A stretch of DNA of 37,412 nt from Candidatus Bathyarchaeota archaeon (lineage in GTDB: Archaea; Thermoproteota; Bathyarchaeia; 40CM-2-53-6; RBG-13-38-9): NCBI GenBank assembly GCA_018397035.1, contig JAGTQV010000003.1, forward strand, positions 1 to 37,412. Reading direction: 5' to 3'. Below the pieces are notes generated by a model. The model was given only the letters and a program-made list of their open reading frames with translations, was not told the origin of the DNA and did no database searches. The first letter of the stretch is position 1, and every line of letters starts with the position of its first letter. Positions 15,959-33,455 of the stretch are shown piece by piece. The translations under genes and the position numbers were made by a program.

Positions 15959-16107
15959 TGGTGCTCCGGGCGGGAGTCTCATGACATTTCTTCGATGCCA
16001 TTTTGAACCCGCGATCAACGGCTTTAGGGATGCTCTCCTCGCATCGAAGCCCGAAAGGCCGCTATGCTGTCGGTCCAGCACGGCTAACCGGGCTACACCA
16101 CCGGAGC
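15959..16107 (-). tRNA. tRNA-Glu(UUC) with three introns
   Basis: On the minus strand the acceptor GCTCCGG (16101-16107) pairs with CCGGAGC (15963-15969), then A73 and CCA (15959-15961). Three insertions interrupt it. A 17-nt one in the D arm (about 16066-16082, ambiguous by three bases because AGC is repeated) has a GCTG/CAGC hairpin. A 28-nt one at 37/38 (16024-16051) has GATGC/GCATC. A 26-nt one in the T loop at 59/60 (15976-16001) has a 7-bp ATGGCAT/ATGTCAT stem with one G-U. Without them the arms read GCGGC-CTTTCGA-GCCGT (anticodon TTC, 16053-16055) and GCGGG-TTCAAAT-CCCGC, a normal tRNA-Glu. Confidence 0.9.
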
Positions 16108-16206
16108 ACTCCTAGGAAAGCAAATACCTCTGACCTTTAAGCTCTTTCTAGATCGAGAGAGATCTGGGATGATCTCACTGGAGACTCGGTTAGCAGAAGA
16201 GGCTGA

Positions 16207-16609: not shown

Positions 16610-18292
16610 TTGCCTCAGCATCCAAGGCTTAGAAGCAGAGAAGTCATCGAGGGAATCGATAGGTACGTTCACCGTGCACTGTTCAAGTGTTCAGGATTTA
16701 CAGATGAGGATCTAAGCAAGCCGCTGGTTGCCGTGGTCAACTCATGGAATGAACTGGTTCCAGGCCACATCCACCTGAACATGTTAAGCCAGCATGTGAA
16801 ACGTGGGATCTTGGAGGCTCAAGGGACCCCTATCGAGTTCAACACGATCGCGCTCTGTGACGGCATAGCTATGGGTCATGAAGGGGTGAAGATGTCACTC
16901 CCAAGCAGGGAGCTGATAGCTGACTCGATCGAGATAATGATCGAGGGGCACATGTTTGATGGGATGGTCTGCATCTCGACCTGCGACAAGATTAATCCTG
17001 GGATGCTGATGGCTGCAGCCCGGCTGGACATCCCGACTATAATGGCTCCTGGAGGGGCGATGTATCCTGCATGCCCGGGATGGGGGTACTATAAGGGCCA
17101 GAAAATCACAGTGGGGCAGCTCTTTGAGGTTCCAGGTCTTCTTGAGGCTGGGAAGGTCACCCCTGAAGAAGCAGCTTACCTGGAGGAGATCACACTCACA
17201 GGTCCAGGTGCATGCGGTGGACTTTACACCGCCACCACAACTCAGGCTCTGATAGAGGCTCTCGGAATGACGCTTCCATACATGGGGACGACGCCTGCTG
17301 TCGACGCTGCAAAGATACGCCTATGCCACGATATTGGAAGACAGGTAATGACGCTTATCAGCAAGGATATCAGGCCGAGCCAGATAATGACGCGGGAGGC
17401 CTTCGAGAATGCGATAACAGTCGACATGGCTCTAGGCGGCTCCACAAACACTATCCTCCACCTCAAGGCGGCAGCGAACGAACTCGGCATAGACCTCCCT
17501 CTTGAACTATTTGATGAGGTAAGCAGGAGGACCCCTCATCTCTGCAACATGTCCCCTGGCGGGACATACAAGATAGTTGACCTGCATAGAGCTGGGGGGG
17601 TGCCTGCCGTCTTGAAGCAGCTCGGGGAACTCATACATGGAGACCTGCCTACGGTGAGCGGCAAGACCATCAAGGAGATAGCTGAGTCTGCTAGAGTAAG
17701 TGATGATGTCATCAGATCTAGGAGAAGCCCAGTTCACAGGGAAGGTGGACTCGCGATCCTCAAGGGGAGCCTGGCCCCAGGTGGGGCTGTGCTCAAGGTC
17801 TCGGCTGTAAACCCGAAGATGTACAGGTTCAAGGGTCCAGCTAGGGTCTTCGACAGTGAAGAGGAGGTCGTCTCAGCAATAAGAGAAGGCAAGATATCCA
17901 AAGGCGACTTCATCGTCATAAGGTACGAGGGGCCGAAAGGCGGCCCTGGCATGAGGGAGATGCTGATGGCGACCGCTATGCTATCAGGCATGGGCCTCGA
18001 CGAGTCTGTTGCTTTGGTGACCGATGGAAGATTCTCAGGAGCGACGAGGGGGCCATGCATAGGCCATGTCTCACCTGAGGCTCTTGAGGGTGGACCTATA
18101 GCAGTGGTCAGGGATGGTGACCCTATACTGATGGAAGTAAGCTCTAGGAGGCTTGAGCTGGAAATCTCTAGGGATGAGCTGCAGAAGAGGCTGCAGTCCT
18201 GGAGGCCGCCAGAGAGAAAGGCTAGACGTGGATACCTCTCCAGATACTCTAAGCTCGTCACCTCAGCGGACAGAGGAGCGGTCTTCACGTAG
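16610..18292 (+). CDS. ilvD: Dihydroxy-acid dehydratase
   Basis: This enzyme dehydrates 2,3-dihydroxy-isovalerate and -methylvalerate to 2-keto acids, the third step of valine, leucine and isoleucine synthesis. The 560 residues match the family length. Iron-sulfur cluster cysteines are visible in [10 protein letters not shown] (Cys125) and [10 protein letters not shown] (Cys202), and [20 protein letters not shown] (84-103) is the signature. At the third position (PGHIHL, 51-56) there is Gly, as in E. coli IlvD, rather than the Cys of the [2Fe-2S] enzymes; I infer a [4Fe-4S]-type enzyme. The C-terminal [16 protein letters not shown] is complete. The start is a TTG at 16610. No other ilv genes are adjacent. 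Confidence 0.95.
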
Positions 18293-28457: not shown

Positions 28458-28532
28458 AAGGCTCTGGTGGATGTACGCTATATGGGAGCCTTCCTCTAAT
28501 CAGCCTAGGATACCATCTAATATCTTCGTTTG

Positions 28533-29786
28533 ATGGATCCATCTGAGCAGGAGGTCAAGACCTCGTTGAGATACATCGACTTCGTCGACTTGAACTACAG
28601 ACCGCGAGAGGACGATCTCGTATGCGATTTCAGGGTTGAGCCTATAGGTATTAGCATCAAGGAGGCTGCGGGGGGTGTCGCCGCCGAGAGCTCGATAGGA
28701 ACTTGGACAGAACTTTCAACGATGCAGTCCTACGTAACCGACCTTCATGCGACTGCATTCATGATCAAAAAGGATCTGGTCAAGATCGCCTATCCTATTG
28801 AACTTTTTGAGAATGGAAACATGCCGAACATACTCAGCAGTGTAGCAGGCAATATCTTCGGCTTGAAGGCCCTCAGGAATCTAAGGTTGGAAGATATTCA
28901 CTTACCCAGGAGAATAGTCAAGGGCTTCAGAGGCCCAAAATATGGTATACCAGGAGTAAGAGAGATCCTCAGGGTGCCTGAGAGGCCTCTTCTCGGGACC
29001 ATAATCAAGCCGAAGCTAGGTCTGAGGGTTCAAGATCATGCCGTCGTAGCCTATAATGCATGGATTGGAGGCTGTGACATAGTGAAGGATGATGAGAATC
29101 TTAGCAGCCAATCGTTCAACCCTTTCGAGGATAGGGTGGTGAAGACACTGGAGATGAGGGATAGGGCTGAGGAGGAGACTGGCGAGAGGAAAATCTACAT
29201 GGTCAACGTAACTGCTGAGACAGAGGAGATGCTTAGGAGGGCAACCTTCGTTGAGGAGCAGGGCGGCGAATATGTCATGGTTGACATCCTGACTTGTGGC
29301 TGGTCAGCCGTCCAGACCCTCAGGGATCATGACCTGAATCTCGTGATTCATGCTCACAGAGCCGGCCACGCCGCCTTCACCAAGAATCCAAAACATGGAG
29401 TCGCTATGCGTGTCATAGCGAAGTTAGTCAGAGTTCTCGGTCTTGATCAGCTCCATATCGGAGCGGTCTTGGGCAAGATGTCTGAGAGGAAGAATGAGGT
29501 TCTGGAGAACTGTGGCGCATTAAGGGATGAGATGTACGGGCTAAAGCCTGTGCTCCCGGTCGCTTCAGGGGGCCTTCACCCTGCCCTAGTCCCCACCTTG
29601 ATCTCCATATTCGGAAAGGATCTGGTGGTCCAGGCAGGTGGAGGGATACACGGCCACGCGTACGGGACAGCTTCTGGAGCGAGAGCGATGAGACAGGCCT
29701 TGGAAGCCGCCATGAGTAATATCTCATTGAGAGAGTATTCGAGATCCCATGTCGAGCTTGCCAGTGCACTGAAGACTTGGAGGTGA
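28533..29786 (+). CDS. rbcL: Form III ribulose-1,5-bisphosphate carboxylase (RuBisCO)
   Basis: This enzyme adds CO2 to ribulose-1,5-bisphosphate to give two 3-phosphoglycerates, here as the last step of AMP breakdown. The 417-residue product matches archaeal form III length. Active-site residues are all visible: Lys159 in GTIIKPKLG, the carbamylated Lys185 with Asp187 and Glu188 in DIVKDDENLSSQSFN, His275-Arg276 in HAHRAGH, loop-6 Lys315 in HIGAVLGKMSE, and phosphate-binding SGGLHP (345-350) and QAGGGIHGHAYG. The ATG at 28533 is chosen; a TTG lies directly before it. It is convergent with the AMP phosphorylase gene 12 bases away, and the isomerase is next in that operon. Confidence 0.95.
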   Translation: MDPSEQEVKTSLRYIDFVDLNYRPREDDLVCDFRVEPIGISIKEAAGGVAAESSIGTWTELSTMQSYVTDLHATAFMIKKDLVKIAYPIELFENGNMPNILSSVAGNIFGLKALRNLRLEDIHLPRRIVKGFRGPKYGIPGVREILRVPERPLLGTIIKPKLGLRVQDHAVVAYNAWIGGCDIVKDDENLSSQSFNPFEDRVVKTLEMRDRAEEETGERKIYMVNVTAETEEMLRRATFVEEQGGEYVMVDILTCGWSAVQTLRDHDLNLVIHAHRAGHAAFTKNPKHGVAMRVIAKLVRVLGLDQLHIGAVLGKMSERKNEVLENCGALRDEMYGLKPVLPVASGGLHPALVPTLISIFGKDLVVQAGGGIHGHAYGTASGARAMRQALEAAMSNISLREYSRSHVELASALKTWR

Positions 29787-29797
29787 AAACCGAAGGA

Positions 29798-31345
29798 CTA
29801 CCTCTCCAAGACGAATCTCTCTCTTGGAGGCCTCAGCTCCTTTATCTGGCTCAGGGTCATCTCCATCCTCTCGCCCACGATCACCGCTACCTCTTCACCA
29901 GCAGCTGAAAGTGCATCCTCCAGTTTTCCAGCCTTCTCAGCAAAGATAGTGTATATTGGATCTCCACAGTCAACCTTCTCGCCAAGCTTCCTGTGTAGTA
30001 GGATCCCGGCTCCCTTATCCTTCGGGGCTCCTGCCAGCCTTGCCTGATCGACCAGCTTCGAGCTGTCCACCCAGAGTACTACTCCCGGCCTCTCTGCCCT
30101 CATCTCCAGTCTATGGTCCCCGACCCGGATGTCCTCAGGCCTTATCTCCGGGTCGCCCCCCTGGGCCCTGATTATCTCTCTAAGCTTCTGCTCAGCCCTG
30201 CCGGTTCTCAGGACCTCCATAGCCGTCTCTTCGCCTCCATCCCTGCCAGTCATCTCCAAGAGCATCCCCGCCATGTCAGTCGCCTTGTCAATCAAGTCCT
30301 GGTCCTGTCTCAGGCCCATTAGGTTCTCAAGAGCCTCCCTAGCCTCTAAGGCTGGGCCGATGGCCCGACCGATCGGTTGTCCACCATAAGTTATCGCACA
30401 TTGAATACTCATCTTGAGCCTTCTCCCAAGATCGATAAAGTCCTGTGCCAAGAGCTGCGCCTCACCCAGCGTCTTGACCTTTGTCTCAGCTCCTGTAGGC
30501 ATATCTATCACCACGTAGTTGGCTCCGACAGCCTTCTTCTTGCTGATTATGGACGGTAACAGTAATGGGTCTATGGAGAGGGGAAACTCAACCTGAACAA
30601 AGATCTCATCTGCAGGGGCCAGGTGCAGGGCTCCGCCCCAGACTATGCATCCGCCAGTCTCATCCAGGACATGCCTCATCTCATCTACACCGAGATCTAC
30701 AGGCATCAAGACCTCGGCTCTATCAGCCGTTCCTGCGGCGGAGGTTATGGCTCTCGATGAGCTCTTCGGGATTGTTAGACCGCAGGCTGCGACTATGGGG
30801 ACGAGGAGGAGTGTGGTCTTATCCCCGGGAACACCACCGATGGAATGCTTGTCGACTATCAACCTCCCTCCGAGATCTAAGGTGTTGCCTGTCTCCACCA
30901 TCGCCAAAGACAGGTTTGTGGCTTCATCGATATCTAGGGCGAAGTGGTGGAGTGAGGTCACGAAAGCTGTTACTTCGACTTCGCTCAGCTGCCCGCTGAC
31001 TAGGTCCTTTATGATCTCATATGTCTCTTCACGTGAGAGCTTCCGGCCTCTCAGTCTGTTCTTGATGTGGTTGATCGAGTTCGGTGGACTCGACGGCTCG
31101 ACCTCGACCTCGTCGTTCTCGTGAAGCCGCAGACGAGCCTGGGCCTCATCATAGACTCCTATCGTACCCCTCGCGACGACCCTTGAGGTTGTATTGACTA
31201 TCGCCGTCAATTCATATTCGTCCTTCCTGATTCTGATTCTGCCTAGGCTTCGCACGCCAAGCTCTTGAGCATCATGGTCATTCAGGATCGCGATCCATTT
31301 TCCGCCAGCATCCAGATGGATTAGTCTCGTCTTCAGTCTCATCAT
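29798..31345 (-). CDS. AMP phosphorylase
   Basis: This enzyme splits AMP (also CMP, UMP) with phosphate into base and ribose-1,5-bisphosphate. It belongs to the thymidine phosphorylase superfamily, and its product feeds the isomerase gene just upstream. Visible motifs are the N-terminal archaeal domain (RLKTRLIHLDAGGKWIAIL), phosphate-binding DKHSIGGVPGDKTTL, SRAITSAAGTADRAEVLMP, and the C-terminal PKDKGAGILLHRKLGEKV barrel-sandwich part. It has about 515 residues from the ATG at 31345; an earlier GTG at 31396 adds a tail not seen in the family. It is downstream of the isomerase in the same direction, about 70 bases apart. Confidence 0.93.
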   Translation of the reverse strand: MMRLKTRLIHLDAGGKWIAILNDHDAQELGVRSLGRIRIRKDEYELTAIVNTTSRVVARGTIGVYDEAQARLRLHENDEVEVEPSSPPNSINHIKNRLRGRKLSREETYEIIKDLVSGQLSEVEVTAFVTSLHHFALDIDEATNLSLAMVETGNTLDLGGRLIVDKHSIGGVPGDKTTLLLVPIVAACGLTIPKSSSRAITSAAGTADRAEVLMPVDLGVDEMRHVLDETGGCIVWGGALHLAPADEIFVQVEFPLSIDPLLLPSIISKKKAVGANYVVIDMPTGAETKVKTLGEAQLLAQDFIDLGRRLKMSIQCAITYGGQPIGRAIGPALEAREALENLMGLRQDQDLIDKATDMAGMLLEMTGRDGGEETAMEVLRTGRAEQKLREIIRAQGGDPEIRPEDIRVGDHRLEMRAERPGVVLWVDSSKLVDQARLAGAPKDKGAGILLHRKLGEKVDCGDPIYTIFAEKAGKLEDALSAAGEEVAVIVGERMEMTLSQIKELRPPRERFVLER

Positions 31346-31417
31346 AACTGACCTGACTCCACATGATTCCATATGTTGATATTTTTCTTCATTCACCCTC
31401 CAGTCTATGCATCAGCC

Positions 31418-32404
31418 TTACTCTTCGTCGATCCTGTAGGTCTGGTACTCGAGGATCTCGCTTGGCCGGATTGTTCCGAACATTTCATGAATTATCATTA
31501 TAGCGCCTTGAGGCGGTATGATCCCCTTCTCAGTAACTATTAGGTCTATGTATTCTGGTGGGGTTACATCGAAAGACGGGTTCCTCACAGAGATCTTTGG
31601 ATACTTTTTCAGGAAAGACTTTGGCAGGATCTCTGTTGCATCACGCTCCTCTATTACGATGAGTTCACCTATCGCGGTCTCGGGGCTGAACTTGTAGGTC
31701 TCAGACGCCACAATGAATTGTGTCCTACTCTCATGAGCAAGGGATGCTATCGAAGCGGTGCCGATCTTGTTTACTAGAGCTCCGTTAGCCGATATCACAT
31801 CCGCCCCCACGATAACCTTGTCAACTTCATTCATGAAGTAGCGTGCCGCGCTGTCAACTATCACCGTGACCGGGATCCCTTCCCTTGCAAGCAGGGCTGC
31901 AGTCTTCCTGCCTTGGAATCTAGGCCTAGTCTCCGTGACGTATACGGAGAACTTCTTCCCTTCGATCCACGCCCTCCTCATAACCGCTGCTGCAGCATCG
32001 CTCTGGCAGTGGGTCAGCAATACGTCGCCGCTTCTTATTCTTCTGGAGCCTATCTCACCAATCTTCTCAATAGCCTGCTTAGACTCTTTGATGAAGTCCT
32101 CTGCGGCGGCTAAGGCTACTGATCTGAGTCTCTCTAGGTCAGCGCCTTCCCGCCTTGCACTGTTGACCCTATGCATAAGGTAGCGGACACTGTTTGCGAG
32201 CGAGACGGCAGTCGGCCTTGTAGATAGCAGTCTCCTCGACGCAGAGTTCATCTCCTTGATAAAGGCTTCTTCATCTCTGGCTCTAGATCCTTCTGCAACA
32301 GCCTGTAAGGCCAGAATGGCTGACCGAGCTATTCGGCCGGCGCCTCTGATGTGCATAGCCTGTATGTCAGCAACTATCCTGTTCAGCCTCTTCTCCGGAT
32401 CCAA
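31418..32404 (-). CDS. Ribose-1,5-bisphosphate isomerase
   Basis: This enzyme converts ribose-1,5-bisphosphate (from AMP phosphorylase) to ribulose-1,5-bisphosphate (for RuBisCO). It is a 328-residue member of the eIF2B-alpha/MtnA fold. R20-G-A-G-R (RGAGRIARSAILAL) binds phosphate, and THCQSDAA puts Cys at 133 and VGADVISANGALVNKIGT puts Asp at 202, the same numbers as the catalytic pair in the Thermococcus enzyme. PSFDVTPPEYIDLIVTEKG ends the family pattern. The related MtnA enzyme is less likely because of the gene neighbours. The gene leads the operon with AMP phosphorylase. Confidence 0.93.
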   Translation of the reverse strand: MDPEKRLNRIVADIQAMHIRGAGRIARSAILALQAVAEGSRARDEEAFIKEMNSASRRLLSTRPTAVSLANSVRYLMHRVNSARREGADLERLRSVALAAAEDFIKESKQAIEKIGEIGSRRIRSGDVLLTHCQSDAAAAVMRRAWIEGKKFSVYVTETRPRFQGRKTAALLAREGIPVTVIVDSAARYFMNEVDKVIVGADVISANGALVNKIGTASIASLAHESRTQFIVASETYKFSPETAIGELIVIEERDATEILPKSFLKKYPKISVRNPSFDVTPPEYIDLIVTEKGIIPPQGAIMIIHEMFGTIRPSEILEYQTYRIDEE

Positions 32405-33352: not shown

Positions 33353-33455
33353 GGGGTCGTGGGCTAGTCTGGTCTACGCTACGCGGCTTGGGAAAGCCAT
33401 TTGAGGGCTTCAGGAACCCGCGAGGTCGTGGGTTCAAATCCCACCGACCCCACCA
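33353..33455 (+). tRNA. tRNA-Pro(UGG) with one intron
   Basis: The acceptor GGGGTCG (33353-33359) pairs with CGACCCC (33445-33451), followed by A73 and an encoded CCA (33453-33455). The T arm is GTGGG-TTCAAAT-CCCAC. Removing 33393-33416 (24 nt, at the canonical 37/38 site) gives an anticodon arm CGCGG-CTTGGGC-CCGCG with anticodon TGG (33389-33391). The intron folds as AAGCC/GGCTT around a short loop. Confidence 0.9.

Follow-up and report, generated by a model that had tools for sequence, protein, structure and literature searches.

Structure of the interrupted tRNA-Glu gene

The window (the whole stretch of DNA analysed, 37,412 nucleotides) carries on its minus strand, from 16107 (the 5' end) to 15959, a tRNA-Glu(UUC) gene with three insertions and an encoded CCA end (Table 1). 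Removal of 16, 28 and 26 nt leaves a 76-nt tRNA with a full cloverleaf, GCTCCGGTGGTGTAGCCCGGTTAAGCATAGCGGCCTTTCGAGCCGTTGATCGCGGGTTCAAATCCCGCCCGGAGCA. This spliced sequence is identical, letter for letter, to the spliced tRNA-Glu of a related genome (L105 in G007), and many other relatives differ from it by 1–2 nt, which excludes a chance origin of the gene. A preliminary description had proposed a tRNA-Glu gene of the multi-intron archaeal type, with three introns whose excision restores a normal tRNA, and the cloverleaf and the G007 match bear out both proposals. Of the insertion sizes given there, 28 and 26 nt stand, and 17 nt is replaced by 16 nt for the D-loop intron. Each insertion was said to form a small hairpin, and this is so, the hairpin of the D-loop intron being merely 2–3 bp. 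A plus-strand reading of the gene was rejected, the tRNA being on the minus strand.

The gene was missed by ARAGORN, which reported no tRNA anywhere in the window, and the only window match of Rfam at the gathering threshold was a tRNA at 33353–33452, with none at the tRNA-Glu(UUC) locus. Both misses are expected given the three insertions. The tRNA at 33353–33452 (+) is a second interrupted gene, for tRNA-Pro(UGG), with one canonical intron of 24 nt and a strict splice motif. Elsewhere in the window (28530–32404), translations read by eye resemble a RuBisCO-like protein (28530–29786), an AMP phosphorylase (29798–31396, minus) and a ribose-1,5-bisphosphate isomerase (31418–32404, minus), a clustering that we take to be that of the archaeal AMP pathway.

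Table 1. Parts of the tRNA-Glu(UUC) gene and neighbouring features, in window coordinates
Feature	Coordinates	Strand	Remarks
TATA-like CTTAAAGG, speculative promoter	16134..16141	-	27–34 nt upstream of the tRNA 5' end; read from sequence only
Exon 1, tRNA positions 1–20b, 23 nt	16085..16107	-	identical in G007
D-loop intron, 16 nt, position 20b/21: GCCGTGCTGGACCGAC	16069..16084	-	strict BHB
Exon 2, positions 21–37, anticodon UUC, 17 nt	16052..16068	-	
Anticodon-loop insertion, 28 nt, position 37/38	16024..16051	-	position set by relatives
Hypothetical outer intron, 17 nt, if the block is a nested pair	16035..16051	-	helix CUUU/GAGG 4/4
Hypothetical inner intron, 11 nt, if the block is a nested pair	16024..16034	-	helix GAGG/CCCU 3/4
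Exon 3, positions 38–59, 22 nt	16002..16023	-	
T-loop intron, 26 nt, position 59/60: ATGGCATCGAAGAAATGTCATGAGAC	15976..16001	-	best strict BHB in the precursor
Exon 4, positions 60–73, 14 nt	15962..15975	-	
Encoded CCA end	15959..15961	-	CCA also 3' of most relatives' genes

Introns in the D loop and the T loop

Splice sites were judged against a strict bulge-helix-bulge (BHB) motif, defined as a 4-bp helix flanked by two bulges of 3 nt, with cleavage after the second base of each; here the helix pairs the end of the 5' exon with the 3' end of the intron. Modelling of the BHB at each junction, which the preliminary description had put forward as a check, gave a strict motif at 20b/21 and 59/60 and none at 37/38 in one step. 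At the two sites with a strict motif, the paired bases vary among relatives in a compensatory manner.

At 20b/21 the helix CGGU/ACCG is paired at 4/4, both bulges are of 3 nt, and the inner stem is 2–3 bp. The intron strand of this helix differs among relatives (GCCG, ACUG, AUCG) with the pairing kept. Relatives without the intron have GGTCAAGC or GGTTTAGC at this site, and this sequence, together with the strict BHB at both junctions, sets the length at 16 rather than 17 nt. Cuts of 17 nt were rejected, being without a strict BHB and leaving a D loop shorter than in relatives. The intron had been considered near the lower size limit, a view that does not hold for this order, where introns of 12–20 nt are ordinary at 20b/21, both in relatives and in the tRNA-Glu(CUC) gene of the same genome.

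The single T-loop intron had been recognized at its correct length. Its helix UUCA/UGAG is paired at 4/4, with an inner stem of 6 bp and an outer stem, the T stem, of 5 bp. The intron is absent from G003 and G007, the nearest genomes by their tRNA-Glu gene, both of which have the D-loop and 37/38 introns; with two introns in common and this one absent there, it was either gained in the window lineage or lost in that of G003 and G007. Among 61 genomes searched, the exact 20-mer TTCAAAATGGCATCGAAGAA at the T-loop intron junction (window 15988–16007) was found elsewhere only in G013, in a tRNA-Leu-like gene (L200, G013:C107:15752-15771) from another family of the same order. To judge from the sequences, this sharing fits the transposition of introns between tRNAs that Fujishima 2010 (as cited in PMC4090602) put forward for Thermoproteales.

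The 37/38 and 59/60 introns (16051–16024 and 16001–15976, minus) contain a 9-nt perfect complement, CTTCGATGC / GCATCGAAG, equalled in 2 of 5000 shuffles, and its pairing would compete with each intron's own hairpin. A functional 9-bp pairing of introns 2 and 3 was not adopted, the intron-3 half being found also in the G013 tRNA-Leu-like gene.

Interrupted tRNA genes and splicing endonuclease of the same genome

The genome (G000) comprises 1.70 Mb in 156 contigs and is 74% complete. The preliminary description would have taken an intact tRNA-Glu(UUC) gene elsewhere, together with no transcript from this locus, as a sign of a pseudogene; no intact gene was found in this 74% complete genome by pattern search or by gene search. 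The only other close matches to the window gene were a tRNA-Glu(CUC) gene with two introns (one of 12 nt at 20b/21, the other of 24 nt at 59/60) and a Gly-like tRNA. Use of a BHB-guided splicer yielded a tRNA-Asn(GUU) gene (L018, G000:C42:4981-5090) with three BHB introns, one of them just after position 8, as well as three tRNA-Ala genes and one tRNA-Lys gene with two introns each. Approximately 31 introns are present in 19 resolved tRNA genes, a partial sample in which the assignments of L012, L194, L195 and L196 are uncertain; these numbers come close to the published extreme, that of Pyrobaculum calidifontis, which has 71 introns in 46 genes (PMC8450103).

A subunit of the tRNA splicing endonuclease is encoded at G000:C31:1766-2005 (PF01974, E 3.9e-28), and its closest solved structures are 3p1z, 2cv8, 3ajv and 2zyz. 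Most members of the order have two PF01974 genes, and one was found in this 74% complete assembly. The presence of two such genes in most members fits an alpha2-beta2 enzyme, the type of endonuclease reported with non-canonical introns (PMC4090602).

tRNA-Glu genes of related archaea

The neighbouring dihydroxy-acid dehydratase-like gene (16610–18292) has its closest matches in Candidatus Bathyarchaeota and Hecatellales MAGs; the best identity being 59%, the placement of the lineage is approximate. From sequence comparison, the host does not look like a member of the Thermoproteales.

We searched 150 relatives with the window gene and followed this with splice-aware alignment. Besides G000, 31 members of the order had a tRNA-Glu(UUC) gene that could be located, and it was interrupted in all 31, the sites in the order being 10/11, 20b/21, 34/35, 37/38, 53/54, 59/60 and 70/71. 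Uninterrupted versions were found in six class-level relatives (G041, G060, G067, G072, G078 and G094). The exon sequence is nearly fixed across many genomes and the introns diverge. The acceptor-stem intron at 70/71 was seen in the tRNA-Glu genes L152 (G016), L206 (G019) and L132 (G023), those of G016 and G019 having the 10/11 intron in addition. None of 2000 sets of shuffled introns reached the observed mean BHB pairing at 20b/21, 59/60, 34/35 and the relatives' outer 37/38 site, a test that is somewhat inflated by the sliding of intron boundaries to the best register.

Proposed nested introns at position 37/38

Most genes of family f3 have an intron at 34/35 (usually with the helix GGCC/GGCC), followed at 37/38 by a block of 38–42 nt in which no one-step BHB was found. 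Read as one intron within another, the block has an inner intron that begins after the RRRGNN end of the outer intron and stops before A38. The RRRG of the outer intron pairs with a complement near the 3' end of the inner one, and once the inner intron is removed the outer intron gains a perfect canonical helix. Both helices (the outer CUUU/RRRG and the inner) are paired at 4/4 in 11 of the 13 genes examined, as against about 1% of shuffled blocks; the genes are related, so that the 11 positives are not independent trials. The inner pairs are compensatory (GGAG/CUCC, GGAG/CUCU, AGAG/CUCU, GGGG/CCCC and GGGG/CUCC). For L129 of G031, removal of five introns (34/35, inner, outer, 53/54 and 59/60), each with a 4/4 helix, takes 187 nt to a 76-nt tRNA; L204 of G024 likewise gives a 76-nt tRNA after five removals, of which three have a helix of 4/4 and two a helix of 3/4.

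On the twintron reading, splicing of the inner intron first would be forced, because it sits on the 3' junction of the outer intron and borrows a strand of its helix. Ordered splicing as such is known, introns having been described that lie so close that one must leave before the next BHB forms; our literature search returned no account of one helix strand common to two introns at one junction.

The window insertion at 37/38 is at the canonical position, as the preliminary description held in calling it the only canonical intron of the three, but its splice motif is the weakest in the gene, with 0/4 pairs for a one-step BHB. A cut at 43/44 (GGCU/AGCC) was rejected because it leaves the anticodon stem mismatched and loses GCCGT, which close relatives keep, and other 37/38 registers worked through by hand (mature loop end GG or AA; anticodons CUA or UUA) gave no BHB. 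Splitting the block into 17 and 11 nt gives an outer helix of 4/4 and an inner helix of 3/4, equalled by 6% of shuffled blocks. The blocks of G003 and G007 (27–28 nt) divide in the same way, into an outer intron of 16–17 nt (4/4) and an inner intron of 11 nt (3/4), and the scores of the three blocks are matched by 3–6% of shuffles. For a degenerate nested pair in the window gene, these figures are no more than suggestive.

Discussion

The locus is very probably a functional, spliced tRNA-Glu(UUC) gene, its host being an archaeon that belongs to the Bathyarchaeota or stands near them. The gene would be transcribed as an interrupted precursor, which the archaeal tRNA splicing endonuclease, probably a two-subunit alpha-beta enzyme, would cut at BHB sites, removing 16 nt at 20b/21 in the D loop, 28 nt at 37/38 in the anticodon loop and 26 nt at 59/60 in the T loop; ligation of the four exons would give the 76-nt tRNA. 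Transcription, the order of cutting, and the processing at 37/38 by a relaxed motif or by two nested steps (17 + 11 nt), are the parts of this scheme that we infer. Against it stand the absence of one-step BHB pairing at 37/38, the single PF01974 gene in the 74% complete assembly, and the missing quarter of the genome, in which an intact tRNA-Glu(UUC) gene could sit. The poor 37/38 motif and the room for another copy in an incomplete genome are also what could be said for a decaying pseudogene with insertions. We consider this very unlikely, since the gene is interrupted in all 31 relatives of the order and the 74% complete genome itself yielded no uninterrupted copy; moreover, the 76 exon bases are all intact and match those of a relative with different intron sequences, and strict BHB motifs are kept at two sites. 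That the insertions are an artefact of assembly or binning, as a MAG-like assembly of 156 contigs might suggest, is barely credible: the 20b/21 and 37/38 introns recur in diverged form in G003 and G007, and the 59/60 intron, with its full BHB, has an exact 20-mer in common with the G013 tRNA-Leu-like gene.

Two readings of the 37/38 block were weighed. It could be a single intron of 28 nt, removed by a broadly specific enzyme that accepts a relaxed, non-BHB site, a reading to which we give an even chance. Alpha-beta endonucleases accept relaxed motifs (PMC4090602), and the block and anticodon stem form one continuous hairpin (-18.2 kcal/mol), but every other resolved intron of the tRNA-Glu gene family has a helix of 3–4/4, and in one step the window, G003 and G007 blocks pair worse than shuffles. 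The block may instead be a degenerate twintron, in which an 11-nt inner intron, removed first, splits a canonical intron of 17 nt at its 3' splice junction, making four introns in the gene. This would refine the functional-gene explanation rather than replace it, and we regard it as plausible, if somewhat short of probable. The 4/4 outer and 3/4 inner helices of the window, G003 and G007 blocks favour it, as does the same arrangement in f3 with its compensatory pairs and its rarity in shuffles; to be set against these are an A.C mismatch in the inner helix of the window block, the 6% of shuffled blocks that do as well, the very short length of an 11-nt intron, and a split point picked after the fact. 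More broadly, we advance tentatively, and at less than even confidence, that tRNA introns have invaded tRNA introns in this order, producing a twintron at 37/38 with the inner intron on the 3' splice junction of the outer one and tRNA-Glu(UUC) genes of up to five introns (G031, G024), the window gene being a decayed example with four.

Multiple introns in archaeal tRNAs are known, as the preliminary description had noted, and three-intron tRNAs have been published. The pre-tRNA-Glu(UUC) of Pyrobaculum calidifontis (Thermoproteales), as cited in PMC4390854, is the same tRNA with three BHB-type introns, a likeness drawn at the level of the gene rather than of intron positions or sequences, but the organism belongs to another order. 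Pyrobaculum islandicum pre-tRNA-Pro(UGG), with introns at 25/26, 37/38 and 56/57 (PMC4090602), likewise combines a canonical intron with others in the D arm and the T arm, but in a different tRNA and at other exact positions. Outside the Thermoproteales, Caldiarchaeum subterraneum has multi-intron tRNAs with introns in the D, V and T arms; 13 of its 45 tRNA genes are interrupted (PMC3293823), compared with most of the sampled tRNA genes here. Heavy interruption is also shared with the Asgard Atabeyarchaeia and Freyarchaeia, of another phylum, where PMC11291895 gives 92–95% of tRNA genes as interrupted, more than half of these lineages' genes having multiple, often non-canonical introns. The three-intron window gene is thus itself of a published type, and the novelty probably lies in the five-intron, probably nested genes of its relatives. 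Five introns per tRNA-Glu(UUC) gene in G031 and G024 apparently exceed the three per gene that we found in print, and the Asgard genomes of PMC11291895 may hold more. Our literature search, with many subscription papers outside its scope, returned neither nested, twintron or four-intron archaeal tRNAs of the f3 kind nor an account of tRNA introns in Bathyarchaeota/Bathyarchaeia.

Because default finders miss the window gene, the number of tRNAs counted in such genomes can be in error. With these data, heavy interruption of tRNA genes is recorded also in an order related to the Bathyarchaeota, and the approximately 30 related tRNA-Glu genes form a series in which introns can be traced, against near-fixed exons, as they are gained and lost, shared between tRNAs and probably nested. 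If the nested introns are real, the RNA itself would enforce the order of splicing.
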